A stretch of DNA of 49,366 nt, taken from a virus. The translations under genes were made by a program, and so were the position numbers. Position 1 is the first letter of the stretch; each line of letters starts with the position of its first letter. Below, piece after piece: positions 12,127 through 42,430 of the stretch. The notes beneath the pieces were generated by a model, which made no database searches, was not told where the DNA came from, and saw only the letters and a list, made by a program, of their open reading frames with translations. The stretch spans positions 1 through 49,366 of the IMG/VR virus record IMGVR_UViG_3300030329_004100; one strand, 5' to 3'.

Positions 12127-13638
12127 CTAGTAATATTCTTTAATTCTGCGTGGATTATTGTCCTGCATATCGTAATCCGATTCTAACCCAATAAAGCCGC
12201 CTTGTCGATAGCGCAACAACGCTTGCGTGGTCGAATCCACCAAATCGTCGTGGTCGCCAAACGGAAAAGCGGCACATTCTTCAACCAGTTCTTCCGCCCA
12301 ACGGGTGTCTGGTACATACACCATGCCCGATTCCAGAATTGGTGCAACAGAATTTACACGCGCAATTTTATCTTGCCCTTTACCAGGGGAGTAATTCACT
12401 ACAGGAATCCCCGCTGCTCGCAATTCGTCAGTAAGCGGCATACCGGAGGCTTTGGCTTCAATAATAATGGTGTCGGGGTCCCAATAACTGTACTGATCGT
12501 AGGCCACTCGTTTGAGTTCAGGAAAATCCCACCGCCCTTTTTTGCTGTCCAGGAGTAATAATGCCGGTCGTGGTGAGCCTTCTTCAGGTTGGAACACACA
12601 CCAAGTAGTAATAGCTGAATAGTCCGCTGTTTCTTTTTTGGAAAACGCTGTGTCGTAGCTTTGAATGACGTAGTGCATTTCTGGCACTTCTTTTTTGTTC
12701 CATTTTTTCCACCACTCTCTTTTTAGTATCGCCCCTTCTTCCGAAGTCGGGTTTTGCATCCACTGGGCTTCCCATTTAGACACCGGAAGTGAGGCTTTTA
12801 CCCCTTGGAGCTCTTCAAGTCTCCAATATTCCGGCCATAGCGCTTTGCCAGATTCAGGGAAAATAGCTGGAAATTCTACGACTTCCCATTGATCGGCATG
12901 ATCTTCGACCTGTTTGCTAAGCAGTCTCCCAGTTAAGTCTTTGGTGCTCCATCTCGTCATCACAATAACAATAGCACCACCGGGTTGTAGTCTTTGGCGA
13001 GGGCCTGAAGAATAGTATTCCCACGCATTGTCCAGGGCCGTTGGACTCAAAGCGTCTTGCTCCGAGTGAATATCATCGAGTACCAATAAATCTGCCCCCC
13101 GTCCGGTAACGGCACCGCCAATACCAGAATAAAACGCTTCGCCTCCCCCGTTGGTTTCCCAACGTCCTGCAGATTTACTATCGGCTTTTAGCGCCACCCC
13201 TGGAAAAACTCCTTGATAATCAGGCGAGTCAATAATATCTCGGACGCGCCGTCCAAAACGAAAGGCAAGTTCAGCGGTGTGCGTAATCTGCATGACCTTT
13301 AACTTTGGGTTTCTGCCTAAAATCCATGACGGGAAGTAAGTGGAAGCAAATTCACTCTTCGTGTGTCTGGGAGGCATATTGATAATAAGCCGTTTCAGCT
13401 CTCCGCGTGCGACTCGTTCGAGCTTCTCAGCAAATATTTGGTGGTGTCGACCTTCAACAAAGTCTGGCCACATGTGTTTGACATACGTCAGAAAGCTTTC
13501 TGCGCCATTGCGTTGGAGTTGTTTAGCGTTTAACGCCTCTGTTAGTTCAATTAATTCCTTAGTCGCATCAGGGTATTGCTCTGCTAAACGATCCAAGTCA
13601 ATATCTACATTATACGTCGATTCAGTTCCTTTTTGCAT
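12127..13638 (-). CDS. terL: Terminase large subunit
   Basis: This 503-residue ATPase-nuclease pumps and cuts phage DNA at the portal. The Walker A is MPPRHTKS at residues 88-95, the Walker B LLVLDDI at 184-190 and the coupling TRW at 228-230. The RNase H-like nuclease has D329 (SYDT), E394 (IIIEAKASG) and the DHDDLVD cluster near 462-468. All key residues are present, so the enzyme should be active. It follows a small 60-residue gene, which overlaps its start by 34 nt, and precedes the portal group. The small subunit gene is not adjacent: a candidate is at 21107-21607. Confidence 0.93.
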   Translation of the reverse strand: MQKGTESTYNVDIDLDRLAEQYPDATKELIELTEALNAKQLQRNGAESFLTYVKHMWPDFVEGRHHQIFAEKLERVARGELKRLIINMPPRHTKSEFASTYFPSWILGRNPKLKVMQITHTAELAFRFGRRVRDIIDSPDYQGVFPGVALKADSKSAGRWETNGGGEAFYSGIGGAVTGRGADLLVLDDIHSEQDALSPTALDNAWEYYSSGPRQRLQPGGAIVIVMTRWSTKDLTGRLLSKQVEDHADQWEVVEFPAIFPESGKALWPEYWRLEELQGVKASLPVSKWEAQWMQNPTSEEGAILKREWWKKWNKKEVPEMHYVIQSYDTAFSKKETADYSAITTWCVFQPEEGSPRPALLLLDSKKGRWDFPELKRVAYDQYSYWDPDTIIIEAKASGMPLTDELRAAGIPVVNYSPGKGQDKIARVNSVAPILESGMVYVPDTRWAEELVEECAAFPFGDHDDLVDSTTQALLRYRQGGFIGLESDYDMQDNNPRRIKEYY

Positions 13639-13787
13639 TTATTAATGTGCTTCTTTTTTGAATTAGGGTTGTTTATATACGACAACAGGTCCTTGGTCGA
13701 AGTGCCTTTCATCCAATAATAAACGACCTTGGTCTTTCCTGTCCGGCGATCAAAGAGCTTTTCTGTTGGTTTAAATTTAATCGGCAT
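13605..13787 (-). CDS. Small basic protein upstream of the large terminase
   Basis: This 60-residue protein contains FDRRTGKTKVVYYWMKG, then TKDLLSYINNPNSKKKH and a basic KCKKELNRR end. I recall comparable short proteins with a TxELxxxLN...KxKxKxxxELxRR pattern placed just before terminase genes in marine phages, which supports it as real despite a 34-nt overlap with terL. Its start overlaps the HNH gene's stop by 11 nt. Function unknown. Confidence 0.6.
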   Translation of the reverse strand: MPIKFKPTEKLFDRRTGKTKVVYYWMKGTSTKDLLSYINNPNSKKKHINKCKKELNRRIM

Positions 13788-14229
13788 TACCTGTCTCTTT
13801 TGTTGTTACTATGTTTTTGCACCACCAATACAGTTCTCCTTCTCCCAGGGTGTGTTTCATTATATTGACTCGTTGTGTCACCAGTTGAATGTTTCCTATT
13901 ATATAGCCTTTATTAGGATCTTTTCTATCAATACTGGCATTAAGATCCTGTTTGCCTTCACCCCCTTGCCAGGTCATAAACACCCCGGACAAAGCGCAGC
14001 GCCCACGTTGTTTCTGCCAAAGTTTTTTAATATGCGCTAAGGAAATGTCCCATTCCATGCTTTTCCTAGCTGCCTTGAGTTTACTAAAAACGACAGCGAG
14101 ATAGGATTCCGGCGTATGATTCCTTGCCGCGTTTCTTTTAAAAGAGGTGCATCGCTTACAGACGTTTCGCTTGCCGGTGTACTTTTCATTGGAAAGTTCC
14201 CTTTGGCAAGTGATGCAAGTTTTTTTCAT
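13777..14229 (-). CDS. HNH endonuclease with N-terminal zinc-binding module
   Basis: This 150-residue protein has a zinc module with CxxC at 5-8 and 24-27, then an HNH-type core: RGRCALSG at 76-82 and SIDRKDPNKGYIIGNIQLV at 99-117 followed by QRVNIMKH. This resembles phage HNH enzymes that sit beside terminase genes and nick DNA during packaging, as well as free-standing homing nucleases. As the first gene after the late promoter, next to terL, a packaging role is favoured. Whether it is a homing element instead is open. Confidence 0.75.
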   Translation of the reverse strand: MKKTCITCQRELSNEKYTGKRNVCKRCTSFKRNAARNHTPESYLAVVFSKLKAARKSMEWDISLAHIKKLWQKQRGRCALSGVFMTWQGGEGKQDLNASIDRKDPNKGYIIGNIQLVTQRVNIMKHTLGEGELYWWCKNIVTTKETGNAD

Positions 14230-14272: not shown

Positions 14273-14301
14273 GTTATATAAAAGGGATTAAAAAATGTCA
14301 A
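14273..14301 (-). promoter_or_regulatory. Late-operon promoter with tandem 9-bp repeat upstream
   Basis: Reading the minus strand, TTGACA (14296-14301) is separated by exactly 17 nt from TATAAC (14273-14278), a near-consensus sigma70 promoter facing the HNH-terL-portal operon. Immediately upstream of the -35, CAGAATATT occurs twice in tandem (14301-14318), a possible regulator site. The giant inverted repeat lies about 35 nt further upstream. Confidence 0.75.
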
Positions 14302-14351
14302 ATATTCTGAATATTCTGTACCCGTCTGTTTTCTGCTCTTTAGAAGATAAT

Positions 14352-14452
14352 AGACAAGCTAGCAATAGGGGGGGATAGCCCCTTTGTATATTCAATTAGT
14401 ACAAGTATGCCTAATTGCAAAGGTTCTATCCCCCCCTATTGCTAGCTTGTCT
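14352..14452. repeat. Giant inverted repeat: 27-bp perfect arms with nested stems
   Basis: Arms 14352-14378 and 14426-14452 are perfect reverse complements over 27 bp, starting AGACAAGCTAGC and including a run of seven G paired with seven C. Inside, CCTTTG (14381-14386) pairs with CAAAGG (14418-14423), and CAATTAG (14393-14399) with CTAATTG (14411-14417), leaving an 11-nt loop. The outer ends AGACAAGC and GCTTGTCT match the hairpin-repeat family at 15.7-17.9 kb. It lies in a 287-nt gene-free stretch between the late promoter and the early genes and could act as origin, packaging site or terminator. Confidence 0.9.
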
Positions 14453-14516: not shown

Positions 14517-14714
14517 TTAGATGTCTAAGTCAATCCCGTTCTCAGAGATGATTGCTTTCGCAACATGAATAATTCTCGCTAGTATCTTACGTTCCTTACA
14601 CATTGAAAGGTAGGTTGTGTAATCACCAGCTTCCATTATGTGAATCATAGATTCCAACGATTCTAAATCAAGTTCTAGTTTATCTAGTGTTTTATCTAAG
14701 TAGATCATTTTCAA
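14517..14714 (-). CDS. Hypothetical small early protein
   Basis: This 65-residue, largely helical, Leu/Glu-rich protein (LDKTLDKLELDLESLESMIH) contains no recognised motif. It is third in a minus-strand unit starting from the promoter at 15259-15286 and is followed by a hairpin. A GGGGGGATAG stretch upstream may serve as ribosome binding site. Function unknown. Confidence 0.55.
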   Translation of the reverse strand: MKMIYLDKTLDKLELDLESLESMIHIMEAGDYTTYLSMCKERKILARIIHVAKAIISENGIDLDI

Positions 14715-14726
14715 CTATCCCCCCTG

Positions 14727-15233: not shown

Positions 15234-15286
15234 GTAGGCTTAATTGCCTACTCTTACTATCTTAATGATTTTATAGGATATGTCAA
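15234..15286 (-). promoter_or_regulatory. Minus-strand early promoter with leader palindrome
   Basis: TTGACA (15281-15286, read on the minus strand) lies 16 nt from TAAGAT (15259-15264). Just past the expected start site, GTAGGC (15246-15251) and GCCTAC (15234-15239) form a 6-bp palindrome around AATTAA, a possible operator or 5' hairpin. It faces the three small genes at 14517-15213. Confidence 0.65.
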
Positions 15287-15645: not shown

Positions 15646-15657
15646 CAAATGCCTCAA

Positions 15658-15688
15658 ATCCCCCGTCAGAAATGGCGGGGGATTTTTT
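15658..15688 (+). terminator. Rho-independent terminator
   Basis: ATCCCCCG (15658-15665) pairs with CGGGGGAT (15676-15683) around a 10-nt loop and is followed by a T tract. It ends the first accessory cassette. Confidence 0.9.
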
Positions 15689-15690
15689 AT

Positions 15691-15948
15691 TGCCCGATCC
15701 GACGCCGTGCTGCAGGCCAGCACGTTCTTTTAGATAGAAAAGACAAGCAAGCGCGTTGCTTTGCCTAGCCTTTTCGCTTCGCACAGGCCCGGCATTGCTT
15801 GTCTTTCCCCGCCCGAAAAAACAAGCAAGCAGATCCTGGACAGCAGGCCGTAGTTCTTTTAGATAGAAAAGACAAGCGAGCACTTCGTTTCGCTAGCCTG
15901 AAGGCCCGCGTCGCTTGTCTTTTCCCGCCCGAAAAAACAAGCAAGTGG
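15691..15948. repeat. Hairpin-repeat units U1 and U2
   Basis: This gene-free region (15646-16068) carries two related units. Each has a TTTTAGATAGAAAAGACAAG box (15727-15752; 15856-15881), a variable 30-45-nt GC-rich loop, a GCTTGTCTTT arm and then CCCGCCCGAAAAAACAAGC. In U1, 15739-15750 pairs with 15795-15806 (12 bp perfect); in U2, 15866-15879 pairs with 15911-15924 (14 bp perfect). An A-to-G change in U2's left arm is matched by T-to-C in its right arm. CGTGCTG/CAGCACG adds a small hairpin at the start of U1. Confidence 0.85.
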
Positions 15949-15977
15949 TTGTATTTGTATAGGATTTTTCGTATAAT
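15949..15977 (+). promoter_or_regulatory. Cassette promoter 1
   Basis: TTGTAT (15949-15954), 17-nt spacer, TATAAT (15972-15977). The sequence from GAAAAAACAAG through TATAATAACGGGGTGG is nearly identical to that of cassette promoter 2 at 16543-16571. It drives the 102-residue gene. Confidence 0.85.
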
Positions 15978-15983
15978 AACGGG

Positions 15984-16060
15984 GTGGCTAGAGTTAAAGG
16001 CTTAGAGTTAAAAGCTCAACAAGTAGAAAAGTCTAGCCACACAACTTAACTAATAACAAG
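15984..16060 (+). ncRNA. Structured 5' leader 1
   Basis: The expected +1 (7 nt after the -10) coincides with the foot of a stem: GTGGCTAGA (15984-15992) pairs perfectly with TCTAGCCAC (16032-16040). Two imperfect 14-nt direct repeats (15991-16004 and 16005-16018) lie within. After the stem comes ACAACTTAAC, shared with leader 2, then the ribosome binding site. Confidence 0.65.
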
Positions 16061-16068
16061 GAAAGAAT

Positions 16069-16377
16069 ATGGACGACTACGAAAAAGAATACGAAGAAGT
16101 GTTTAAAATCACACAAACATCTGTAGAAGCATTGGGCGAAACTATGTTAGACCTTACTAAAAAGAGAGGTGAGAAAACAGGGGAAGCAACCGATGCGTCG
16201 ATGTTGATAGAGCACTTAATCAAGCATGTGTGCGGTTTCATTCTCTGTGCTTTAGCAGATGATGCTGAAGAAAGAGAGGAAGCTATGGATATAATAAGGG
16301 AAGCAGTTAGACATGCTGACAAGTATGCACTAGACGCTTTGGAAGTAGCAGAGGCAAAAGAAAAAACTAAACACTAA
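16069..16377 (+). CDS. Hypothetical accessory protein
   Basis: This 102-residue acidic, helical protein has no recognised motif; the middle holds a hydrophobic VCGFILCALADDAEE stretch that is too short and polar to be a clear membrane segment. An AAGGAAAGA Shine-Dalgarno precedes the ATG. It is the only gene of its cassette, bounded by a promoter with a structured leader and a terminator. Small early phage proteins of this type often target host functions, but nothing here identifies a target. Confidence 0.6.
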   Translation: MDDYEKEYEEVFKITQTSVEALGETMLDLTKKRGEKTGEATDASMLIEHLIKHVCGFILCALADDAEEREEAMDIIREAVRHADKYALDALEVAEAKEKTKH

Positions 16378-16400
16378 GCCTCCTTGTTATAGTGTTGGAA

Positions 16401-16427
16401 GGGCCACCGAAAGGTGGCCCTTTTTTA
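16401..16427 (+). terminator. Rho-independent terminator
   Basis: GGGCCACC (16401-16408), loop GAAA, GGTGGCCC (16413-16420), then a T tract. A tight, stable tetraloop terminator ending the 102-residue gene's cassette. Confidence 0.95.
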
Positions 16428-16542
16428 TTTCCCGATCCGAAGCACGCCCTGCGTCCGGCAGCTCCGGAAACTCTTTTAGATAGAAAAGACAAGCAAGCAT
16501 CAAATCTTGCTTGTCTTTGGGCGACCGACGGAAAAAACAAGG
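16428..16542. repeat. Hairpin-repeat unit U3
   Basis: Within the 295-nt gene-free stretch 16378-16672, CCCGATCCGA is followed by the TAGATAGAAAAGACAAGC box (16473-16498). AAAGACAAGCAAG (16485-16497) pairs perfectly with CTTGCTTGTCTTT (16506-16518) with only an 8-nt loop, the tightest hairpin of the family. The unit ends in GGAAAAAACAAG, directly joined to the next promoter. Confidence 0.85.
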
Positions 16543-16571
16543 TTGTGTTTATATGAGATTTTTTGTATAAT
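16543..16571 (+). promoter_or_regulatory. Cassette promoter 2
   Basis: TTGTGT (16543-16548), 17-nt spacer, TATAAT (16566-16571), followed by AACGGAGTGG. It is a close copy of cassette promoter 1 in sequence and context. Confidence 0.85.
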
Positions 16572-16577
16572 AACGGA

Positions 16578-16665
16578 GTGGTTGAGAAACAAGATTAAAT
16601 TCGGACAAGGAAATCTCATTAAAATTATTCCTAAACAATGCCACACAACTTAACAATAATAAGGA
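16578..16665 (+). ncRNA. Structured 5' leader 2
   Basis: GTGG at the expected +1 (16578-16581) can pair with CCAC (16641-16644), and TGAGA (16583-16587) region with TCTCA (16614-16618). The stem is weaker than in leader 1, but the sequence GCCACACAACTTAAC before the ribosome binding site is identical, so the leaders are homologous. Confidence 0.5.
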
Positions 16666-16672
16666 GAACGAT

Positions 16673-17206
16673 ATGGGAATGGACGTTTATGGATTGAATC
16701 CAACAACAACTGCACCAGCACAACCTAACCACGACGACTTTGATTCGGAAGATTGGAAGGCGTATTGGGAAGGTCAATCATTATCTGGTCAATACTTTAG
16801 AAACAATGTTTGGTACTGGCGACCGCTTTGGAATTATGTTGCCAACCTTTGTTCTGAGGTTATCACCGAAGAAGATCTTGACGCTGGACATCACAACTCT
16901 GGGCATGTTATTGACGCTGAAAGGTGTAAGTATATTGCCAACGCTTTGGCGCACGAACTTTTGAACGGTGGTGTTGAGGAGTATAAGAAAGAATACGACA
17001 AGGCCATTGAAAGATTGCCGTTGGTCAAGTGTGATATTTGCGACGGTACTGGTCAACGAGATGATGAGTATGTGCGAGGCGACTGCAACGGCTGTGGTGG
17101 TAAAGGAGAGCGTAAGCACTTCGATACTGGCTACCCGTTTGAAGTGTCAAATGTTCGAGAGTTTCATACCTTCGTCAAGAACTGCGGAGGATTTGAGATA
17201 TGTTAG
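16673..17206 (+). CDS. Conserved phage protein with DnaJ-type zinc finger
   Basis: This 177-residue protein starts MGMDVYGLNP and has YFRNNVWYWRPLWNY, a pattern I recall from a widespread but uncharacterised phage and bacterial family. Residues about 135-160 hold two CxxCxGxG units (CDICDGTG and CNGCGGKG), the zinc-binding signature of the DnaJ cysteine-rich region, here without a J domain. It may bind zinc and partner proteins. An AAGGAGAACG Shine-Dalgarno precedes it and a membrane miniprotein gene overlaps its end by 7 nt. Confidence 0.7.
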   Translation: MGMDVYGLNPTTTAPAQPNHDDFDSEDWKAYWEGQSLSGQYFRNNVWYWRPLWNYVANLCSEVITEEDLDAGHHNSGHVIDAERCKYIANALAHELLNGGVEEYKKEYDKAIERLPLVKCDICDGTGQRDDEYVRGDCNGCGGKGERKHFDTGYPFEVSNVREFHTFVKNCGGFEIC

Positions 17207-17283
17207 CTGAACACGCTTTAGTGGTTGTCATTGGTTTGGCTTTTATTATCGCACTCATTGGATTTTTAGCGACAATAGACTAA
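17200..17283 (+). CDS. Single-pass membrane miniprotein
   Basis: A 27-codon frame (MLAEHALVVVIGLAFIIALI, ending GFLATID) forms one hydrophobic helix. GGAGG lies 10 nt upstream of its ATG, inside the end of the zinc-finger gene. Like the 26-residue miniprotein at 15565, it is the last gene of its cassette, just before a structured RNA and a terminator. Function unknown. Confidence 0.6.
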   Translation: MLAEHALVVVIGLAFIIALIGFLATID

Positions 17284-17398
17284 CCGCAAAGTCCCGTTGG
17301 CTAGGTGTTGCAGTTAACTAAGGTTAGAATAAAAATAGCGCAACTTCTAACCCTAGCCAACCGACCAAGAACCCCCGACAGAAATGTCGGGGGTTTTT
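17284..17398 (+). ncRNA. Structured RNA candidate with nested pairing, ending in a terminator
   Basis: GTTGGCTAGG (17296-17305) pairs perfectly with CCTAGCCAAC (17352-17361). Inside, GTTGC (17307-17311) can pair with GCAAC (17340-17344), and GGTTAGAA (17322-17329) with TTCTAACC (17345-17352). These interleave, so they form either a pseudoknot or alternative states. A terminator follows at 17371-17397. No separate promoter is evident, so it may be the 3' part of the cassette mRNA or a processed small RNA. Confidence 0.55.
17370..17398 (+). terminator. Rho-independent terminator
   Basis: AACCCCCGACA, loop GAAA, TGTCGGGGGTT, then a T tract: a strong 11-bp tetraloop hairpin at 17370-17395. It ends the zinc-finger/miniprotein cassette. 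Confidence 0.95.
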
Positions 17399-17906
17399 TA
17401 TTTCCCGATCCGAAGCACGCCCTGAAGCGTCCCCGCAGCTCTTTTAGATAGAAAAGACAAGCAAGCGGTCTTTTCTCCCCCGCCGATCCGAGAGTCAGGC
17501 AGCTCCTGCTGCCAGGGGAAACTTTCTTTAGATAGAAAAGACAAGCAAGCCCAGGTTTTACCAGGGCCCATTGTCTTTTCTCCCCCCGAAAAAACAAGCA
17601 AGCCTCTTCCAGGAAGAAGCGGGCCCTGATCCTTTTTAGATAGAAAAGACAAGCAAGCCTCTTCCAGGAAGAAGCGGGCCCTGATCCTTTTTAGATAGAA
17701 AAGACAAGCAAGCCCTAGCCATCCGTGTCCTTCTGGCCCAGGCTGCTTGTCTTTTCGCCGACTGGAAAGACAAGCAGGCACGGCGTAACCCCGGCAGGGT
17801 CCCAGCTCCTTTCCTCAGAAAAGACAAGCAAGCAAATACCACGGGTGTGCGCAACACAGCAATGGGCCCTGAAGACGGGTCGTCTCTCAGAAAAGACAAG
17901 CAAGCA
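17399..17906. repeat. Dense hairpin-repeat array (U4 onward)
   Basis: A gene-free stretch with seven GAAAAGACAAGC-type boxes (17441, 17526, 17632, 17687, 17817 and 17888, plus a variant at 17762). Matching arms GTCTTTTC occur at 17468, 17571 and 17745, giving stems of 8, 10 and 12 bp. GC-rich variable segments of 15-60 nt separate the boxes. CCGATCCGA recurs at 17405 and 17483. The array ends 1 nt before the stop of the minus-strand nuclease gene. No credible gene is present: the open frames coding for ACLSFLSK-like repeats are by-products of the repeats. Confidence 0.85.
17604..17713. repeat. 55-bp perfect tandem duplication
   Basis: Bases 17604-17658 and 17659-17713 are identical: each holds CTCTTCCAGGAAGAAGCGGG, CCCTGATCC and one TAGATAGAAAAGACAAGC box. 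This shows that a unit has been duplicated recently. Confidence 0.95.
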
Positions 17907-23195: not shown

Positions 23196-23331
23196 TATGG
23201 CCCTCGTCAACGAGGCGTCCTTGTTCCACCGTCTCTTCTATTTTTTGGTGCAAAGCCTCCTCTCTATAACCTTGGTTATACCAATATAAAGCCGCTTTTT
23301 CCCTAGATATATCGTCTTCCGTAGTCTCCAT
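23167..23331 (-). CDS. Hypothetical 54-residue protein after the ejection protein
   Basis: A 54-codon frame begins at the ATG at 23329-23331, inside the last 29 nt of the giant upstream gene (METTEDDISREKAALYWYNQ, later EETVEQGRLVDEGHITCAGG). Its composition is even and charged, as expected for a real small protein. A TTGAATT sequence offers no clear Shine-Dalgarno, so translational coupling is assumed. Function unknown. Confidence 0.5.
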   Translation of the reverse strand: METTEDDISREKAALYWYNQGYREEALHQKIEETVEQGRLVDEGHITCAGGVCD

Positions 23332-26300
23332 AATTCAATACTTGATTCGTTGCTTTCTTAACCAATCCCCCTTTCTGATAACCTTCCCAGGCTCCATATA
23401 GTACAGCCGTCTCCCTTAGTGGTGCGATCTCTAAGGCACGAACTTTAACAGGGCCCTGTTCACGTCTTCCTGTCGCCGGGTTGTATATGTTCGCTGTAAA
23501 CTCATCGACCACTTTAAAATCTAGTTTAAACTTGTCCGCAATCTTTTGTGCCTCTTCTAAAGCTTGGAAATAAGGAGTCCTGGGAGAATCGCCGTACCCG
23601 GCATCAGGAATGTAGATGTGAGTAATATCTGGATCGTGTTGCAAAGTCTTTACAATAGATGCCTGTAATAAAGCTTTGGGCCAATCCGCTTTTAGCGGGT
23701 AATCTGGACGTATGTCGGCGTCTCTAACCTGGGACCCATCGAACGTCTTCTTGGCGTCCTTGTATTCCTTATGAGAAGGCGCCGTATTTTCTATAAAAGG
23801 TAAAGCAATATCTGTCAGCCCAGGAACTGCGAGTAAAGCGTCCCTATAAATCTCTTGGTTTTGAGCAATAAAAGCGTCCCTTTTACTGGCAGCAACGTTA
23901 ACAAGCGTGTTTTTAGCCAGAGAAAGCGCATCATCCACCGTAGCCACAACTTCAGGGTCTTCCACAAACTCTTCGTCCAAAAGCCCCATACGAACAAGGT
24001 TCTTTCTCCACCTTGATGGGCCTAGCCAAAAGGTACTATCCTTCCCGTGTTTTATGTCTTTAAGATACTCCTTTGTTTGGGCCTCAGTTAGGTTAAGACC
24101 TATGGACGCAAAAGGCTGTGTTTGCTGGAAAGCCGCCACCGCTACATCAAAAGCCGCCGGACCGATCTCGTTTTCAGAAAACTCGCCTGCTCTTTTGTCA
24201 AAAGCTTTTATTTTTTCTAAGTCTACATAATTCTTCAAATAGGATCTAAACGCTTCAGCTATGTCTTTAGGGAAAACAGGGGTTTCTGTTCTAGCCATGT
24301 CCTCTTGAAAACGAACGCCGGGAAAAGCAGAAGCGTCAGGCGTTGTTCCCATCGCCTCTTTAGGCAGAAAAGGCAACAAAATCGTTTTACCCAACTCCTT
24401 TGCACCACCAGTCAAAGAACCGTATTGGAGCTCAGGGTTGCTTAATACCGCGTCCCAAGCGCTCGTTATTTTTGTGCCTTCTCGGTACTGATCTTTTTCT
24501 TTTTCGGACATCGCGTCCTTGTTTTTAACATGTGATCGGTATATTTCGCTTTTATCTGGGTCCTGAGAAGACCCGTGTAGTTTTGACTGTATTTCTGCTA
24601 AAAGCGCGCCTTTGGCGTTTTGGTACTTTTCATCTATGTGCGAAAACATGCCGCCTCTCCACCAGGCAAGCGTACTGGGGTCTGTCCAAGCGTGCGTAGT
24701 GTCTCCGTCATCATAAACAGCGGGATCAGCTCTTTTACGATTAGCTCTTGACTCCACCCAGATTCTCAGCTTCGTCAAAAAAGGCATGTCTTGGTCTCTG
24801 TTTGCGTCGTCAAGGGCAAACTGTTCTTTGGTTCTATTGGTAATCTCTGGAGTGTAGATCAGTGGCATTTCTAAGTCTTCCCCCAACCTACGCAAGTTAT
24901 CGGTTCCCTCTCCTGTGTGCCTACCAAACAGGTGACTGGTACCGTGCTTAGGCATATAAGGCTCTGTGGCTCTTTGGCTAGCGTCTACTTTAGGTGGCGT
25001 AAGAATGTTAATAACTGGAGCCAGGTCCAAATACCCTTTCATTTTCTTCTGTATCCTTGGTTCCACAACATCAACCCACTCATCAGCAAGACGTTCATTT
25101 GTTCGCTGATCGCCGATGCCCTGATAGTCGTCTGGAAGAATCTCCGATTTCTCGATCTCCTCTTTTTTTATTTTTTGATACACTCTTCCTAAGTAAGTGT
25201 TTGACGCGTCTTCAAAAATGGCCATGTCTCCCTCTTCCAAGGAGTAAGCAGACTCCCCCGGAAGTTTCGCCTCATTAGCCGCCCATTCCCTACTTCCCAC
25301 CAATGGACCAAAAGACTTGGGCAGCGCCATGGCAGTGGCTACATCCTCACCCACTCCTTTAAGGACCAACGCTTCGCGAACACCATCGTCTGGCCTCACC
25401 TCTATTGCGTTGCTAGAAAGCAGGACAGACTTGAAGTTGTTGCGGTGATTGGTATAAACGTCCAAAACCTCTTGTTTAGTAACCTTTTCTCCAGCGTTTA
25501 TTCTGTCCTGCAAAAACTCCGCTACTCCCGATTCAATCGCTTGTCTTGCAATCTTGGATTTGCTTTTCTTTGTCTTGGTTGCCTGAAAATCACCGTGCAG
25601 TCTACCTTTCGCGCTTCCTGGAGTCTTAACATACAGCCAACGCATCATCTCGGCAGCAGGGATAGGCTCGTTGTTTACAAGTTTTTTTGGAAAGTCTACT
25701 TTATCCTCTTTGTTCTCCCACCGTCCTTCTAAGTGCTGAATTAAAGGGCTATAGGACATAAAGGTAGGATCAAGGGGACCTTTTGGAGCGTCTCTCATAA
25801 AGCCGATTTGCGGATCGGTATAAACCTGGTGTACAGAGCCTAAAGGAAAGACAGTAGATAAAGCATTGGAACCAATGGCAACTCCACCAGCCGTAAGAGG
25901 GAAAAGTTCGGGCGTAGTTTTCCAAAGAGCGTCTCCCCCATAGGGAACATTCGTCCCTTCAAAACGACCTTCATCTAAAGTGGCTGTAAAATCTGTTTGG
26001 TAGGTTGAAGCTCTGTTTTTTGCAAAGTCTTCGACTGCGGACATATCAAAAAAGTCTAGGCTATCCATTTCGCCAGGACCATAGTCATGGTCGATGTCTG
26101 CCAAGTTTATAGTGTATTCATCAGGAGCTCTTTGTAGTTCATCGAGAACGTCTTTAAAAACACTATTTTGGTCTTTTTTATTTAAACCAAGCCCTGCGAT
26201 TGTTTCTTTTACAGCTCCCAACTCTTTGTCTACCTTTTGCATAGCACCATCGTCGCCCAGGTACTCCTGAACCATGTCGTCTTGGTCTAAAAGTATTTTT

Positions 26301-27373
26301 CGTGTAAAGGTGTCTACTTCTAAAGGAGACATGGTTTCGGCAAGGTTTGGCAATTTTTCCTTCAACAAAACCTTTTTTTCAGCCTCGGCTTTTCGTATAG
26401 AGTCTTGCACATCTGGGAAAACTCCTTCTTCCCTGGCCTTCTTTTTCTCTGTCAGGGTTTTTTCCGCGCTTTTTTTACTTCTGGCTGCTGTTACACCCAG
26501 TTTCTCTGCCCCAGCTTGCACCGCCGCTTTACCTATGTCTGTACCCGCTTGGGTAACTCCCCCTGCGCCAGCACCCAATAAACCCTCTCCAAGCGCGGCT
26601 TTGTGGTCTAGTCCTTGTATATACTGACCTAGACGGGAAGTGTCAACATACGTTTTGTCTGGATCATAGCCTACGTCGCTCTGTTCTTGTGCGTCGATCT
26701 GTTCTTGTGTCATATCAGCGCCTTTTACAAGACGCACTAGGTCTTTGTAGGGCTCAGTTCCTAGTGTACCACCAACTTGTTCCGTGTAACCTTGCAGCCA
26801 TTCGGTGCCTCCTTCCGACGCTGTTGCTTTTGCCGCTCTTTTAGCGGTTTGCCCTGCTTTGCCGATGTTATTAAGCACACCCACATTTTTAATACCAACA
26901 GCGTTTAGGGCTCCTGAAAAAGCAGAAGCGCTCAGTGCGCCCTTCCAATCTTCCCAAGTAGGCTCTTCTCTCTTATTGTTTCTGGCTCTTTCATAGGCAA
27001 TGGGTCCTGCAAGCTGTACGGCCTCAAACAAACCCGGACCTAATAAAGCACCAACAGCCGCCCCAGCTGGGCCCCCTGCTAGTCCTCCAAGCACTGTCCC
27101 TACACCTCTTGTCAATATGCTTCCAGCGATTTGTCCCGCTTGTTCAAAGACTGCCATTGGAAAATGCTCCCACTTAAACCCTTTGTCTTGAGCATTTATA
27201 AACTTTCCAGCTGCTGCTTCATAGTTTTCTGGTGTTTCGACAAGATCGCGCAAAAAATCTTCCCAACCCTCCATGCCGAGGGCTTGAAATGTGGTTGCCA
27301 TGTTCTCCAGAGGCTGATCGAAAGAGTGCTTAAAAGCCGAAGACAGGCTTGTATCTTTAGGGGATGTTGCCAT
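23303..27373 (-). CDS. Giant internal virion (ejection) protein
   Basis: A 1356-residue protein from the ATG at 27371-27373; a GTG five codons upstream at 27388 is the alternative. Residues about 85-125 hold a Gly/Ala-rich hydrophobic hairpin (VLGGLAGGPAGAAVGALLGP) as in proteins that insert into membranes during DNA ejection. A long helical middle follows, and the C-terminal part (ITHIYIPDAGYGDSPRTPYF) resembles domains of large polyvalent phage proteins. YQKGGLVKK lies near the end. Together with the 1872-residue protein it would form an ejectosome. Family call is inferred from size, composition and position. Confidence 0.6.
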   Translation of the reverse strand: MATSPKDTSLSSAFKHSFDQPLENMATTFQALGMEGWEDFLRDLVETPENYEAAAGKFINAQDKGFKWEHFPMAVFEQAGQIAGSILTRGVGTVLGGLAGGPAGAAVGALLGPGLFEAVQLAGPIAYERARNNKREEPTWEDWKGALSASAFSGALNAVGIKNVGVLNNIGKAGQTAKRAAKATASEGGTEWLQGYTEQVGGTLGTEPYKDLVRLVKGADMTQEQIDAQEQSDVGYDPDKTYVDTSRLGQYIQGLDHKAALGEGLLGAGAGGVTQAGTDIGKAAVQAGAEKLGVTAARSKKSAEKTLTEKKKAREEGVFPDVQDSIRKAEAEKKVLLKEKLPNLAETMSPLEVDTFTRKILLDQDDMVQEYLGDDGAMQKVDKELGAVKETIAGLGLNKKDQNSVFKDVLDELQRAPDEYTINLADIDHDYGPGEMDSLDFFDMSAVEDFAKNRASTYQTDFTATLDEGRFEGTNVPYGGDALWKTTPELFPLTAGGVAIGSNALSTVFPLGSVHQVYTDPQIGFMRDAPKGPLDPTFMSYSPLIQHLEGRWENKEDKVDFPKKLVNNEPIPAAEMMRWLYVKTPGSAKGRLHGDFQATKTKKSKSKIARQAIESGVAEFLQDRINAGEKVTKQEVLDVYTNHRNNFKSVLLSSNAIEVRPDDGVREALVLKGVGEDVATAMALPKSFGPLVGSREWAANEAKLPGESAYSLEEGDMAIFEDASNTYLGRVYQKIKKEEIEKSEILPDDYQGIGDQRTNERLADEWVDVVEPRIQKKMKGYLDLAPVINILTPPKVDASQRATEPYMPKHGTSHLFGRHTGEGTDNLRRLGEDLEMPLIYTPEITNRTKEQFALDDANRDQDMPFLTKLRIWVESRANRKRADPAVYDDGDTTHAWTDPSTLAWWRGGMFSHIDEKYQNAKGALLAEIQSKLHGSSQDPDKSEIYRSHVKNKDAMSEKEKDQYREGTKITSAWDAVLSNPELQYGSLTGGAKELGKTILLPFLPKEAMGTTPDASAFPGVRFQEDMARTETPVFPKDIAEAFRSYLKNYVDLEKIKAFDKRAGEFSENEIGPAAFDVAVAAFQQTQPFASIGLNLTEAQTKEYLKDIKHGKDSTFWLGPSRWRKNLVRMGLLDEEFVEDPEVVATVDDALSLAKNTLVNVAASKRDAFIAQNQEIYRDALLAVPGLTDIALPFIENTAPSHKEYKDAKKTFDGSQVRDADIRPDYPLKADWPKALLQASIVKTLQHDPDITHIYIPDAGYGDSPRTPYFQALEEAQKIADKFKLDFKVVDEFTANIYNPATGRREQGPVKVRALEIAPLRETAVLYGAWEGYQKGGLVKKATNQVLNYGDYGRRYI

Positions 27374-27388
27374 ACCCCTATAATACAC

Positions 27389-36141: not shown

Positions 36142-36858
36142 GTGAAGCATAAAATACTTTACGAGTCGCCGTACGAGTATGGCGTGTTTTCCAGCGAGGA
36201 TAGGAAAGGCGGAAGGTTTTATGACTGCAATGGAGAAAAACTCCCGTCTGTAACCACTATTCTATCTGGCACAAAAGAAGGAGACTTCTTGAAAAAGTGG
36301 ATAGAAAAGGTGGGAGAAGAGGAAGCAGAACGTATTCGTACAGAAGCTGCGACCAGAGGAACCTATATGCACAACATTCTGGAGAAACAGATTGTCAACG
36401 GGGAAATCTGGGACTACAAGCCAGAAGACGCACAACAGAAAAGAGCTTTGAAAATGGCCTGTACGATCATGGACCAAGGGTTTCCTAATATCTCACAGGT
36501 GTATGGTTGCGAAGTATCTTTGTACTATCCTGATAAATACGCTGGTCAAGCAGACGTTATCGGTGTGCATGACGACGATCTTTCTATTATAGACTTTAAA
36601 CAAACCAACAGACCAAAACGTAGACAATGGGTGTGGGACTATTTTCAACAACTTGCTGCCTATTCTTTGGCACACAACGAGCTGTACGGCACAGATATTG
36701 AAAAAGGCGTGATTATGATGTGCTCAGTGGACTGTCTTTACCAGGAGTTTGTTTTAGAAGGGGACGAATTTAAACGCGCTGCCGATGCCTGGATGGAGCG
36801 GGTGGAAAAGTTTAGTCTTCCCAAGGAATCGGAAGATAAGGGTTCCCAAGAAGACTGA
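36142..36858 (+). CDS. PD-(D/E)XK exonuclease, MGME1/Cas4/RecB-like
   Basis: This 238-residue protein starts at GTG. The nuclease motifs are RGTYMHNILE (H77), CEVSLYYPDKYAGQADVIG (E124, D138), IIDFKQ (D151, K153) and WDYFQQLAAYSLAHNELYG (Q169-Y174), the order seen in MGME1-like and RecB-type exonucleases. It lacks the cysteine cluster of typical Cas4. It would process ends in recombination-dependent replication or remove flaps, complementing a polymerase without a 5' nuclease. Its end overlaps the opposing ejection gene by 47 nt. Confidence 0.82.
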   Translation: MKHKILYESPYEYGVFSSEDRKGGRFYDCNGEKLPSVTTILSGTKEGDFLKKWIEKVGEEEAERIRTEAATRGTYMHNILEKQIVNGEIWDYKPEDAQQKRALKMACTIMDQGFPNISQVYGCEVSLYYPDKYAGQADVIGVHDDDLSIIDFKQTNRPKRRQWVWDYFQQLAAYSLAHNELYGTDIEKGVIMMCSVDCLYQEFVLEGDEFKRAADAWMERVEKFSLPKESEDKGSQED

Positions 36859-39800
36859 TTTTTGCCGCAGCAAGTTGTCGGTGTCTTTCGCTTAGTTCTG
36901 CTCTAGGCCAAGTTCTTTCTAAACCATATTCCCTTTTAGCTTTTATAAAGTCTCTTTGAAAAGTGGGGGGAAGAGTCCAAGGGGTGAAAACACCTTTCTC
37001 AATGTTTCTTATAATGGTTGCATCAACCCCAGCGATTTGTCCTAAACGAGCTGTTTGTTCTCTGTATTCTTTGGGGGAAACCTTTAGTTTTTTGAAAGCC
37101 TGTATTTTCATATAAATATCTTGCTGTATTAAAAACCATGCTTCTTGTGAGTCTTGCCACTGATCTAAAACATATGCTTCAGTTATTTTTCTTTTGTCCC
37201 AACGCACGGGGTTCATATTAAAAGCAACCGTATCCGCGTGAAGGTCTTTCACTTTCTGTATATAAAACCCTAAACTAAAATCAGGAGAGGCGTCGCTTTG
37301 TGTCATTCCAGCCAGTTTCATCGCAGAATCAACCACCTCAACCATCTTACCGCTTTTGGTAAACCTATCGTCTCCTTCTGAAACGGCTTTGTACAGATCC
37401 CTTACTTGTCTGTAGCCTCCTGGTCCTGCATTATCTAAAGCGTATTTAAGACCAACACTAAGCTTTTCTCCTAAATTATCCGCAGGGTTATAGATTTGTT
37501 TGTTTGTTGGCGTTTCGTTTTCAAACAGCTCTTTTGATATTTGGGCAGCAATAGAGATTTGATAATAGTCCTCTGCAAACTGTACAACACCATCCCACAA
37601 CCCTTTCATAACCGCTCGTGGAAGGCCTACTCCTTCTTCTTCTCGGTCTTTTATATTTGATTCAACAGCGTTGTATGATCTTTGTAAAAACATAAAAGGA
37701 AACAAATAGTCCAGTAAAATAAAGCTGAACCCACTTCCATCGTCTTTTACAGGACTTGTTGGAGCCCTGGTAGAATTTTTAGAATACTCTGCACCAATTT
37801 CATCGGCTGCTTCTAAGTCTTCGTCATCAACATCGTACATTATTTGAGACATTGCAACGAAAGCAGCGGGAAGACCAACTACAGTGCCTCCTCCAATCAA
37901 TAAACGTTTCATTGCTTTACGATGAAACGGTCTTTGGGCCATTTGTTTAATATAAGGCTTCGTAGGTACCCATTCACCTTCCGCATTTTTCTTTGTGTTC
38001 CAAACAACCTGCTCAGGAGGAAGACCCGCTTCCAGCATTAACTCTTCTGGAATACTATATGTTGCGTCTTTATATTGCATTTGAATCAGGTTTCCAGTCA
38101 CTCGTGTCATCTCAGTTGGAAAAGCAATAAAGTTGCCCAACGGAAGCTGACGCCAAAACCTAGCAAACGCTCCTACATAGTCGTAGTTTGGTATAGTGTT
38201 TCTTGTAATATGTGCTGCTAAATGGTCTATGTAGCCGTCTAAATCAGTTACGTTTCTGTACAGAATCGCTGCATTTGAGCGATATGTTCCTATGTTTGTT
38301 GTTAAAGTGCTTGAATAATCGCGTAAAATTTTAAGTTTAATTTCATCAGACAGAGGCGGACTCCCATTAGCTACAGCAGCGTCTGATAATCGGTCTAAAG
38401 ATTTTCTTATTTCTATTTTATTTGCGCCCCATGTCATTAGTTTAAAGAAATCATCAACCGCTGCGTATGTTCCTTTTAGGGTTCTCCAAACCTTCCCCAC
38501 AGTTTTATCAATAACAAAACCAGGTAAAGTCATGGCCGCAGTAAAAGGGGTTTCTGTGTTTAAGTGTTTTAACGCATAAAGTCCGTGTGTAATTTTTTCA
38601 GTGGTGTCGTACTTGCCGCTGCTCATTTCGTTAAAAATACCAAAAGCATCATTTAGGGTTACACTGGTGTGTGATATACTAAGTAGTCTGGCTGTTCTCA
38701 TGTTTTTACGGGCCGTTGCTTGATCGCCTTTAACGCTTCCGTCTGGGTTATACGTTAATCCCGGAAACAGTTCTTCTCTAATAATGTTAATGGTGTCTGT
38801 CCAATTTCCTTGGTACAAATGCCCTCCCGCGGTGTACATAAGAGCCGCTCCAAACGCGTTTCTGCTTTGCGTGCCTGGACTCAGAACAATCATTCCAGCC
38901 TGAACCCCTCCCTTAGCCCTTAAAAAAGTGTTTTGATAAAGATTAATAAAAGCGTTCCACCTATGTGACTCTGGAAGTGTAGAAATACCAAGCTCTCCCG
39001 CTATGTCTTTGGTTGTCCAAAGTCCCTTTAAAGGATTAAACTCATCTAAGGGGTTTATTTGAGTGTCAAAGGGCCCTACTTTATTTTGAGAAAACATCAT
39101 TTCTCCAGGCATGTTGTTTATTCGTAAAAGGTCTCTGTAGAAGTTTTGTGTCTCAATAAGCTTGGCAATACGAGAAAAAGACGAAGCAACCATAAGTTTA
39201 GGATCAGTTATTTCTCCCATGAGGCGCCTAATAGCAAAAGGAATTTTAAACCGTTCTTGCAAAAGTTTTGGCCCAGAAGGAAGTTTTCCAGTTTGAGCAG
39301 CGTCTTTAACCCTTAAAACCCCTGGTAGTGTTGCTGTGTCAGCGGCCGAACTAAAATATGTCTGGTTTACAATATTGTCCACAACACGGAACGCATCGAC
39401 TTCTGGGTTCCATTCAGGGTCGCCTGAATTCATTTCATTTACAGCAATAACCGCTGATTCATACAATCTTTCAGCTGTTGGGGAACGAAGAAATGTTTTA
39501 CTAAACTTAGGATTAAACCCTAGTTGGGGTTCAAATAGCGCAAAAGAAGTAACGGCGTAAGAGTCTAATTGGTTCTCTAAAATCTGTCTTGTAAGCCCTT
39601 TTTCACCGTCTTTATCTCCGAGCATTTCTTTTGGAAACTCGTTTAAAATTCTAGTGGTCAATGCGTCGATTCCTTTCCGTGCCTTTATAGCCGCATTTTT
39701 AAGCTGTTTTGTAGGCAAATCTTTCACCGCTGTGGTCATTGAGACGGTGCCTGCTGCAAGATCTCGAAGATCTCTTATCCCTTGTTCGTATTCCATAGCC

Positions 39801-42430
39801 TCTTGGTCATTGGCAACGACTGCCGTGCTTCTCGCTGCTTCGAGTCTTTCTATTTCTGCTAAAACAGCCTCCTTTTCTTCTTTGGACAGCTCTACATACG
39901 TTCCTGTTTTTTTAAGAAAAGAGCGAACTAGATTGCGTATTTTTTGCTCTTCTTGTAAGTATTTTTTGTTTTTAAATACGCCAAATGTTTTAGGAACCGC
40001 TTCGATCGCGGCTTTTATAATTGCCACCTCTACATCTGAAGCTATTTCTTTAGCTACTTGATCGTGCATCCTTAAACGAGCTTGTGTGGCTTTTTGTTTT
40101 GTGGTGGACACTAAGCCCATTTTTCCCATGGGTCTAAATAAAGAAGAAAGCCAACCTTTGCCCGATGTAAAAAAATCGCTTTGGTCAGCGGGTCTTGTGC
40201 TTCCCACGAGACGCAAACCCGTCAATTCAATATCAGCTATTTTTGTCAGAGGATCTATTACAAGTTCCTCAATTGTTTTGCCTTCATAGGACGAAAACTC
40301 TTCTTGAGTTAATCCTTTACCTGCTTTGGTTGCTACCAATCTTCCTAGTTTTCCCACCGCCGCTATCTCCGCATCAGACAAAGGCTGCTCTTTGTCAAAG
40401 ATGGCCCTTGACACAAGGTTGTCAAAGTCTTTGTCTTCTAACAACTCTCGTTGAAAATAAATAGTCCCTTTTTCTGTGCCGTCCATGTTGTAAAGAGTGG
40501 CTGCTGCACCGTACGCGTTTCCCTGTTCGGAAATTTCTCGGAGCGTGTGCGGGGTAATTTTAATTCCTTTTTGTTCTTCTCCAGCTACTGTTTCTGTGGG
40601 CTGTACATTAATTACTTCTGGTTGAATAACCATTTCTTTTTTTAACCGTTGGTTTTCCAAAACCATCATTCTGCCAGCAAGCACAGAGGCTAATCCTGAC
40701 TTAGTGTTATACGCTGCCTTAATACTTCCAGGTCTTCCTCGTAATCCAACACTTTTTCCAAGCAAATCTTCCACCGCTCTTTGTAGTTCGTCTTTGGTGT
40801 ACTTGGACGAAAGATTTTCAATGTAGTTTCTGTACCCGCCTCTTCCTTCTAGGGAAGACCAAATAGGCCCGCTAGTTGCTTCTCTGTGAAGTAGTCCCGC
40901 AGACGTATGAGCTAAGGCTTTTCTCGCTTCTCCCCATTGTCCAGGCATCTCTGGATTGTTATAAAACTCGGACTCAAAAGCCGGAGGCAAGAACGTGTAG
41001 TCTCCTTGATTTTCCGCCCAGTATATGTAGTTGTCCCAAGTTTTTTCCGGGGTCGCTCCTTCAAACTCTCTTTGTATATAGTCAAACAGGTCTTGCCCAG
41101 ACATTTCGTCAAATATTTTTGACTGTTGGTTGAGTCTGTCTTCAAACGTAAGCTCACTTAATAAATCTCCCTGCATTTCTGCAAAAGCTATTTCTTGCTG
41201 AGCATCGGCTATGTATTTTTCTTTGAGCTTATTAAACATAGCTTCCGCGTTGTCTCCCGGCAAAATAGTAACATCAAGGACGTCGGCTATTTTTTTAAGA
41301 GCATCGGTGTTTATACCAGTGTAGTTATTTTCTTTTAGTTCTTGCTCCAGTTGGCTTCTTATAGCAGAAAGGTCGTCTACTGTTGTTGTTTCATCATACT
41401 CTTCAAGCATCTCCCGCTCCTGTGGACTCATCTCGTATTCAACCATCTCAGTCATTCTTTGCGTCTCCATAATCTCAAGATGCTTTTCTTTCATAATTGC
41501 ATCTAACAACTGCGAATCGGCAGCGCTGTTTAAGATCGCCTCAGATCTTTCTTCCCAGTTTTTTCTGGCTTCTTCCCTTTCTTGTTTGCTCGTAGCCCTG
41601 CTGTGTCGTCCTCGAACACCTGAAGCTAAGGCAGGGGCTTCAAAAGCAAGTTCTCCAGCAATTCCTCTAGCTACTCCCGTCGTAGGGTCCATGTTGGGAT
41701 CAATGTATTCTTTAACTAAAAGGTTTCCTGTAACCGTGTCACCTGTTTCTGCTCCGGCTTGAAGCATGGCTTGAATAATGGATCTTTTTAAAGGCTCTGC
41801 TGCCCTTCCGACCAAGGCCAAAGGAACAGTTGCAGCGTTGATAACGGCGCTGAGACCTGATTTTTTAAGGGCGTAGTTTTCTGCCCCTTCTTTATCGTCC
41901 GGGTTTTTTTCTAAATGTTCGTAGTAAGCGTTACCAAACTCTTGAGCAAAAACAGCACCACCGCCACCTAACATGGCACCAGCAATCGCGCCATAAGGAC
42001 CAAAATACATTCCAGCAGTTCCCCCTGCCGCAGCTCCTGCTAGAAAAGGAACCGACCCTGGAACAGCTTCACCTATGGTTGCTGCCCACCATTTAGGGTC
42101 TGTTAGGTTTTTAAACTGCTCAACACCTTCTTCGCCGTACCTAGCCCTATAAATCTCTTCTTCCGCGATAGCTCTTTTTTCTTCAATGGTTTTTTCTTTT
42201 TCAGCGACTGCCTCTTCGTCTCCGCGTGCTTCAGCAAGGACTTGTCCTGTTTGACCAAATGAAATTTGTCTTCCTGTACGACCTTTTAACCAGCTTTTTG
42301 AGAAAATCTCTCCAAACCCTTTTTCTTCATCAGGGTCGGTTTCTTTTTCTTCTTCGGGGATAACTTGTTGCAGCGCTTGTTTGGCTTCGTATTCCTCTAT
42401 TCGCCTTAGTTGCTCTTCGGTGTAAGGCAT
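36812..42430 (-). CDS. Giant internal virion (ejection) protein
   Basis: This 1872-residue protein, the largest here, has an acidic helical start, then near residues 115-165 a Gly/Ala-rich membrane hairpin (VPFLAGAAAGGTAGMYFGPY and GAIAGAMLGGGGAVFAQEFG). A long helical middle follows, and the last third has further hydrophobic segments (FIAFPTEMTRV, LLIGGGTVVGLPAAFVAMSQ) and a domain resembling LPD38-type polyvalent-protein regions. It most likely sits inside the capsid and forms a channel across the host envelope. No lytic-transglycosylase or protease motif was recognised. The gene runs into the convergent exonuclease gene. Confidence 0.65.
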   Translation of the reverse strand: MPYTEEQLRRIEEYEAKQALQQVIPEEEKETDPDEEKGFGEIFSKSWLKGRTGRQISFGQTGQVLAEARGDEEAVAEKEKTIEEKRAIAEEEIYRARYGEEGVEQFKNLTDPKWWAATIGEAVPGSVPFLAGAAAGGTAGMYFGPYGAIAGAMLGGGGAVFAQEFGNAYYEHLEKNPDDKEGAENYALKKSGLSAVINAATVPLALVGRAAEPLKRSIIQAMLQAGAETGDTVTGNLLVKEYIDPNMDPTTGVARGIAGELAFEAPALASGVRGRHSRATSKQEREEARKNWEERSEAILNSAADSQLLDAIMKEKHLEIMETQRMTEMVEYEMSPQEREMLEEYDETTTVDDLSAIRSQLEQELKENNYTGINTDALKKIADVLDVTILPGDNAEAMFNKLKEKYIADAQQEIAFAEMQGDLLSELTFEDRLNQQSKIFDEMSGQDLFDYIQREFEGATPEKTWDNYIYWAENQGDYTFLPPAFESEFYNNPEMPGQWGEARKALAHTSAGLLHREATSGPIWSSLEGRGGYRNYIENLSSKYTKDELQRAVEDLLGKSVGLRGRPGSIKAAYNTKSGLASVLAGRMMVLENQRLKKEMVIQPEVINVQPTETVAGEEQKGIKITPHTLREISEQGNAYGAAATLYNMDGTEKGTIYFQRELLEDKDFDNLVSRAIFDKEQPLSDAEIAAVGKLGRLVATKAGKGLTQEEFSSYEGKTIEELVIDPLTKIADIELTGLRLVGSTRPADQSDFFTSGKGWLSSLFRPMGKMGLVSTTKQKATQARLRMHDQVAKEIASDVEVAIIKAAIEAVPKTFGVFKNKKYLQEEQKIRNLVRSFLKKTGTYVELSKEEKEAVLAEIERLEAARSTAVVANDQEAMEYEQGIRDLRDLAAGTVSMTTAVKDLPTKQLKNAAIKARKGIDALTTRILNEFPKEMLGDKDGEKGLTRQILENQLDSYAVTSFALFEPQLGFNPKFSKTFLRSPTAERLYESAVIAVNEMNSGDPEWNPEVDAFRVVDNIVNQTYFSSAADTATLPGVLRVKDAAQTGKLPSGPKLLQERFKIPFAIRRLMGEITDPKLMVASSFSRIAKLIETQNFYRDLLRINNMPGEMMFSQNKVGPFDTQINPLDEFNPLKGLWTTKDIAGELGISTLPESHRWNAFINLYQNTFLRAKGGVQAGMIVLSPGTQSRNAFGAALMYTAGGHLYQGNWTDTINIIREELFPGLTYNPDGSVKGDQATARKNMRTARLLSISHTSVTLNDAFGIFNEMSSGKYDTTEKITHGLYALKHLNTETPFTAAMTLPGFVIDKTVGKVWRTLKGTYAAVDDFFKLMTWGANKIEIRKSLDRLSDAAVANGSPPLSDEIKLKILRDYSSTLTTNIGTYRSNAAILYRNVTDLDGYIDHLAAHITRNTIPNYDYVGAFARFWRQLPLGNFIAFPTEMTRVTGNLIQMQYKDATYSIPEELMLEAGLPPEQVVWNTKKNAEGEWVPTKPYIKQMAQRPFHRKAMKRLLIGGGTVVGLPAAFVAMSQIMYDVDDEDLEAADEIGAEYSKNSTRAPTSPVKDDGSGFSFILLDYLFPFMFLQRSYNAVESNIKDREEEGVGLPRAVMKGLWDGVVQFAEDYYQISIAAQISKELFENETPTNKQIYNPADNLGEKLSVGLKYALDNAGPGGYRQVRDLYKAVSEGDDRFTKSGKMVEVVDSAMKLAGMTQSDASPDFSLGFYIQKVKDLHADTVAFNMNPVRWDKRKITEAYVLDQWQDSQEAWFLIQQDIYMKIQAFKKLKVSPKEYREQTARLGQIAGVDATIIRNIEKGVFTPWTLPPTFQRDFIKAKREYGLERTWPRAELSERHRQLAAAKISLLGNPYLPIPWED

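Follow-up and report, generated by a model that had tools for sequence, protein, structure and literature searches.

A run of cytosines stands at an almost fixed distance upstream of the putative late promoter of terL in an uncultured group of marine phages, and in most of these phages it lies within one arm of a long hairpin whose arms differ between genomes and pair almost perfectly within each. The presence of the hairpin, its pairing, the spacing of the C-run, and the exchange of the upstream module are documented here. Together, palindrome and C-run suggest a DNA-level control element, of which no earlier description was found in the literature. The account that we prefer, tentatively and with rather less than even confidence, is that the hairpin would form the upstream part of late (terL) promoter control, with the C-run as a promoter element and the palindrome as a helpful, dispensable DNA structure perfected by template switching. 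The window is the whole stretch of DNA that was analysed, the 49,366-base IMG/VR virus record IMGVR_UViG_3300030329_004100 (positions 1-49,366). The features needed below are as follows.

12127-13638, minus strand: terL (terminase large subunit), a first gene of the late operon.
13777-14229, minus strand: HNH endonuclease gene between the late promoter and terL; homing-type insertion, missing in some relatives.
14273-14301, minus strand: putative late promoter, with -35 TTGACA (14301-14296), 17-bp spacer, and weak -10 TATAAC (14278-14273); conserved in relatives.
14297-14337, minus strand: conserved block beside the late -35 (..AAAGAGCAGAAAACAGACGGGTACAGAATATTCAGAATATTTGAC); possible activator site, motif once per relative contig.
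14352-14452, no strand assigned: inverted repeat (hairpin) of 101 nt, with 27-bp perfect arms and a 47-nt loop.
14352-14378, plus strand: late-promoter-side arm (on the late, minus strand it is the 3' arm); the array repeat shares its outer 8-12 bases, AGACAAGCTAGC.
14368-14374, minus strand: C7 run of the late strand (G7 on the plus strand), the constant element; 66 bp to the -35.
14381-14423, plus strand: nested stems CCTTTG/CAAAGG and CAATTAG/CTAATTG within the loop.
14426-14452, plus strand: early-gene-side arm, which is the 5' arm on the late strand.
14430-14436, plus strand: C7 (G7 on the late strand), the hairpin partner of the C-run.
14517-14708, minus strand: small gene upstream of the hairpin, sharing the strand of the late operon.
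15259-15286, minus strand: promoter-like site TTGACA-16-TAAGAT, serving the leftward small genes.
15719-17905, plus strand: array of CTTTTAGATAGAAAAGACAAGCAAGC repeats, some of them paired with an inverted GCTTGTCTTTT; it lies among small early genes, between their terminators and promoters.

The earlier note on this DNA had described 27-bp perfect arms, a G7/C7 block, and two nested stems at 14352-14452, and all of these are present; the arms (14352-14378 and 14426-14452) pair over 27 bp with zero mismatches, and the hairpin does stand, as had been claimed, between the late promoter and the early genes. Folded as single-stranded DNA, the hairpin reaches -47.5 kcal/mol, whereas 200 shuffled sequences gave -17.2 +/- 2.9 (z = -10.4). 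It is the sole inverted repeat with arms of at least 15 bp in the 49 kb window, the runner-up having 14 bp.

A scan for TerL relatives returned 80 loci. Among the loci examined, 62 distinct late-promoter segments had sufficient upstream sequence. A hairpin is found at the same place upstream of the terL promoter in 57 of these 62; in most of the TerL loci with enough upstream sequence the inverted repeat lies 150-200 bp upstream of terL, to which insertion of the HNH endonuclease adds about 550 bp. The 57 hairpins have loops of 16-224 nt and 31 distinct 5' arms, a count that leans on a finder which seeks pairing, so that two other comparisons are preferred. Where the 14 bases outside the G-run were set against the 14 outside the C-run, bases picked regardless of pairing, 11.1/14 matched within a genome and 4.6/14 between genomes; the failures were mostly loci of the L021 type, in which part of the C-run finds its partner in a closer G5 run. 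Among 24 distinct arm sets, 97% of cells were Watson-Crick, versus 42% with re-dealt partners and 20-24% when the arms were slid by 1-3. Double changes occurred at 12/12 tested arm positions and G-T in 1/288 cells of these sets, the segments being related and the counts therefore those of non-independent events; T-A, C-G, A-T, and G-C were all found at one arm position inside one arm class. Differences between arms are thus clearly compensated among relatives, in keeping with the earlier view that so perfect a fold-back must be kept by selection or be of recent origin.

More constant than the hairpin is its C-run. In 62/62 distinct segments, the 5/62 without a long hairpin included, the late-strand C-run (6-8 C) stops short of the -35 by 66 bp (58 segments) or 67 bp (4 segments); in the window the interval runs from 14368 to 14301. 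In more distant relatives, with another motif beside the -35, the distance is 66-68 bp, the second of two equal C6 runs, ending at 68, being the one counted in L081. Between the C-run and the conserved block, the linker is almost unrelated in sequence across classes and unchanged in length. The fixed spacing to the late -35 points to a promoter-linked DNA element, which the earlier note had not named. The late promoter is putative, a consensus reading with a weak -10; the motif adjacent to its -35, AGAATAYYCAGAAWMTTTGAC, occurs in 80 stretches of viral contigs, one per contig, and as a single copy in the window. Hairpin-free relatives (L040, L054, L065, L052, L087) have alternating CG/CA or long polypyrimidine tracts beside the C-run, and some sequence prone to non-B-DNA may lie beside it in every lineage.

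The upstream module is exchangeable between phages. Among phages whose terL genes are 97-100% identical, some have the usual palindrome, others an unrelated one, and others no palindrome. L042 and L043 have 99.6-100% identical terL and a nearly identical late promoter and leader; in L042 the CTTCGCTCG hairpin is present and the upstream genes are directed away, whereas L043 lacks the hairpin and has a gene and terminator that point at the late promoter. L054 (no hairpin) and L057 (hairpin) are a further pair, with 99-100% identical terL, and L046, with 97% identical terL, carries an unrelated palindrome. As hairpin-free phages with 99-100% identical terL exist, the palindrome is dispensable. 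The module breakpoint lies about 35 bp on the promoter side of the C-run, so that a correctly spaced C-run comes with every module.

In the account that we prefer, the C-run 66-68 bp upstream of the -35 would be an upstream promoter element, most likely bound by a phage or host factor that would act with the conserved 40-bp block beside the -35. The palindrome, where present, would work as DNA, the G-run and C-run pairing in negatively supercoiled DNA or in single-stranded DNA during replication; its formation would set the late promoter apart from the early promoters nearby and may couple late firing to replication or supercoiling. The perfect arms would be kept by template-switch copying in replication together with selection for some palindrome at this place. 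Loops of 16-224 nt count against this account, since cruciform extrusion from duplex DNA would be slow. A bolder version appears doubtful to us: a new promoter architecture in which a C-run about 66 bp before the late -35, mostly within a DNA hairpin dependent on replication or supercoiling, would tie virion-gene expression to replication, the module being freely exchanged.

The strongest rival is that the palindrome is a by-product of mutation: the C-run would matter to the promoter and the palindrome would have no task, a stalled polymerase switching onto its own nascent strand and so creating or perfecting palindromes, by a mechanism that is known (PMC7202029). We regard this as a real possibility, on the unlikely side. 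The near absence of G-T or mismatched pairs is what templated copying predicts, and the rival is also favoured by the near-identical phages without a palindrome, by the L046 palindrome, which has arms of unrelated sequence at the same place and is again perfect, by the G8/C8 of L014 against the G7/C7 of L015, and by a tandem duplication in L050 that is mirrored in both hairpin halves. It is opposed by the occurrence of a palindrome in most lineages at one place, by the other C6/G6 runs of four genomes, none of which has such a palindrome, and by the usual cost of palindromes. A 17-mer of the L046 palindrome was found in 7 contigs, about the chance expectation; 6 of them have one arm only and the seventh, L177, is L046 itself. 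The loops of group B hairpins (L050 upstream of terL; L038, L042, L058, L174) hold repeats of GAATGAAT/GAATGAAAG that mirror each other across the two sides and keep fixed mismatches (tandem GA-type), a pattern that growth of the palindrome by mirrored duplication could give.

The earlier note had offered an origin, a packaging signal, or a transcription barrier as the role of the hairpin, and none of the three is well supported. As a replication origin or single-strand initiation site, the single-stranded hairpin would load the archaeo-eukaryotic-type (AEP) primase of the phage. An AEP primase (weak PriCT match), a helicase, and PolA are indeed encoded, and A/T-rich tracts lie just downstream of the late promoter in the window and in relatives; this reading leaves the 66-68 bp spacing to the -35 unexplained, however, the hairpin is dispensable, and GC skew tracks the gene strand with no separate origin signal, and we think it improbable.

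Slightly more improbable still is a transcription barrier or RNase III site that would keep upstream transcripts off the late operon. In group A, to which the window belongs, the upstream gene runs toward the hairpin and the late operon, an intrinsic terminator upstream was mostly not found, and several hairpin-free relatives have an upstream terminator instead, all of which would suit a barrier. Group B, however, keeps the hairpin although its nearest upstream genes, and the promoter-like sites in between, are directed away from it, so that in half of the relatives the hairpin faces no incoming transcription unit. The group B hairpin is flanked by two outward-facing promoters, and transcription of neither strand is therefore expected there. 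This layout, the near absence of G-U pairs, and the missing T-run after the arm favour a role, or a way of arising, at the level of DNA; the hairpin probably acts as DNA and not as RNA. In group A, where upstream transcription could yield RNA of the hairpin, it could have an added RNA role.

A packaging or concatemer-processing site, at which the hairpin would be nicked near terL as proposed for T7-type ends, is very unlikely. Packaging sites often adjoin terL, as this hairpin does. In two near-complete relatives, however, the two ends of the sequence match each other over 150 bp in one and 118 bp in the other (95-97% identity), at a place distant from the hairpin, so that both close into a circular map of about 59 kb; contigs run across the hairpin, and those that end near terL do so at different places, with no base in common. 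Fixed genome ends at the hairpin (cos, direct terminal repeat, or T7-like concatemer junction) are unlikely on these alignments, and no end repeats were found in the 49,366-base window.

Least likely of all is a recombination junction, the palindrome being a hot spot for exchange of the upstream module like the promoter-stem-loop cassettes of T4-type phages: the breakpoint between near-identical phages about 35 bp from the C-run, the array elements between terminators and promoters, and an encoded RusA-like resolvase would fit, but the exchanged modules have no homology at the palindrome and exchange also yields palindrome-free modules.

Several known classes of element were considered and rejected. 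An intrinsic (rho-independent) terminator does not fit, as no arm class has a T-run after its 3' arm on the late strand; a terminator scan at the hairpin flagged only a partial stem, AGGGGGGGATAGCCCCTT, on the plus strand. A structured RNA family was rejected on the lack of an Rfam match in the window and the single G-T among 288 cells. Promoters of the N4 hairpin type, which a giant virion RNA polymerase recognizes, have a stem of 5-7 bp and a 3-nt loop, and the stem here has 27 bp; the two largest ORFs of the window gave no polymerase match. A protelomerase site of the telRL type needs an unbroken central palindrome, and the arms are 47 nt apart here and 16-224 nt in relatives; no protelomerase was matched among the window proteins searched. 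REP/BIME elements of RAYT transposases have many dispersed copies and this hairpin is single-copy; no Y1 (HUH) transposase was found among the window proteins searched. For an invertible DNA switch, 32 distinct loops were compared and no pair was clearly more alike once inverted, counts of concerted change from this loop comparison being partly circular, as the finder seeks pairing.

The earlier claim that the ends of the hairpin are akin to the array at 15.7-17.9 kb holds for the window and its close relatives, to which the likeness, over the outer 8-12 bases, is confined; it fails in the other half of the group, where the late arms (CTTCGCTCG..) are unlike the array (CAAGCAAGC..). In the record, AGACAAGCWAGC has 10 copies, all in the hairpin or the array, and the reversed control has 0; outside the array, its repeat is best matched at 14336-14363, over 28 bases (score 32; next 28; array copies 50-56). 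From 15656 to 17905 a layout is repeated, namely terminator, repeat element(s), sigma70-like promoter, and small gene, with promoters TTGTAT-17-TATAAT at 15949-15977 and TTGTGT-17-TATAAT at 16543-16571; it looks like a region of cassette shuffling. In group B (L039, L044, L049, L192:5736-5804), more long perfect palindromes, with 27-30 bp arms starting CAAGCAAGC, lie between early genes just upstream of promoter-like sites. Early promoters of L065, L038, L057, L078, and others have, between -35 and -10, a palindromic motif resembling GGATATATCC, which a shared repressor might use as its operator; in L029 and L037 an inverted repeat makes divergent promoters share this motif.

The gene set of the window is that of a tailed phage (terminase, portal, capsid, PolA, AEP-type primase, helicases, RusA-like resolvase). 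The HNH gene at 13777-14229, which is not present in L014 and L015, probably encodes a homing endonuclease expressed from the late promoter. A second CTATCCCCCC (late strand: GGGGGGATAG) occupies 14715-14725, where the small gene immediately upstream of the hairpin would have its ribosome-binding site; the same 10-mer also occurs in the hairpin arm. Two ORFs are large: one of 1361 aa (23303-27388) in the early/middle region, very large for an unidentified gene and without a PHROG or Pfam match, and one of 1872 aa (36812-42430) that ends the late block, its sole match being a marginal one to a family of tail-associated lysins. A tRNA scan of the window gave nothing, and two scans of genome contigs gave no host or provirus.

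For the timing of late genes in marine phages that depend on host RNA polymerase, this site offers a precise candidate, an element at fixed spacing. The phages form a natural set of near-identical genomes with the palindrome, with another palindrome, or without one, and they preserve a clear natural example of concerted change in DNA palindromes, which can help to tell selection apart from template-switch copying.

The nearest named relatives are the HTVC023P-type pelagiphages (HTVC023P, HTVC027P), phage 023Pt_psg01, and phage DSL-LC04, with amino acid identities of 56-62% for TerL and 50-54% for PolA; they lack a long inverted repeat and a C7 run at the corresponding place. Hairpins, inverted repeats, and promoters are unmentioned in the main text of a paper on uncultivated HTVC023P-type genomes (PMC9599517). 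In T4-type phages, promoter early stem-loops (PeSLs) are units of stem-loop and promoter between small early genes in a fast-shuffling region (Arbiol 2010 and Comeau 2014, as cited in PMC4503421). The array at 15.7-17.9 kb resembles PeSLs in layout only, and modules are likewise exchanged here upstream of a conserved promoter. The 101-nt hairpin differs in its far longer arms, its lack of a T-run, its single copy, and its fixed distance upstream of a late promoter, and the last two rule it out as a PeSL, which would occur in many copies between early genes. At single-strand initiation hairpins, such as the ssi sites of RSF1010 that are read by RepB', a primase starts synthesis on SSB-coated DNA. 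The analogy would be that the phage has both a long hairpin and a primase of the AEP type; such sites are not known to be held at a set distance from a promoter. In Escherichia coli, quasipalindromes are perfected by template switching, a process known in bacteria (PMC7202029). The hairpins described here are like them in having perfect arms, changes mirrored in both arms, and almost no one-sided intermediates; unlike them, the palindrome recurs in most phage lineages at one place and is tied to a C-run of fixed spacing.
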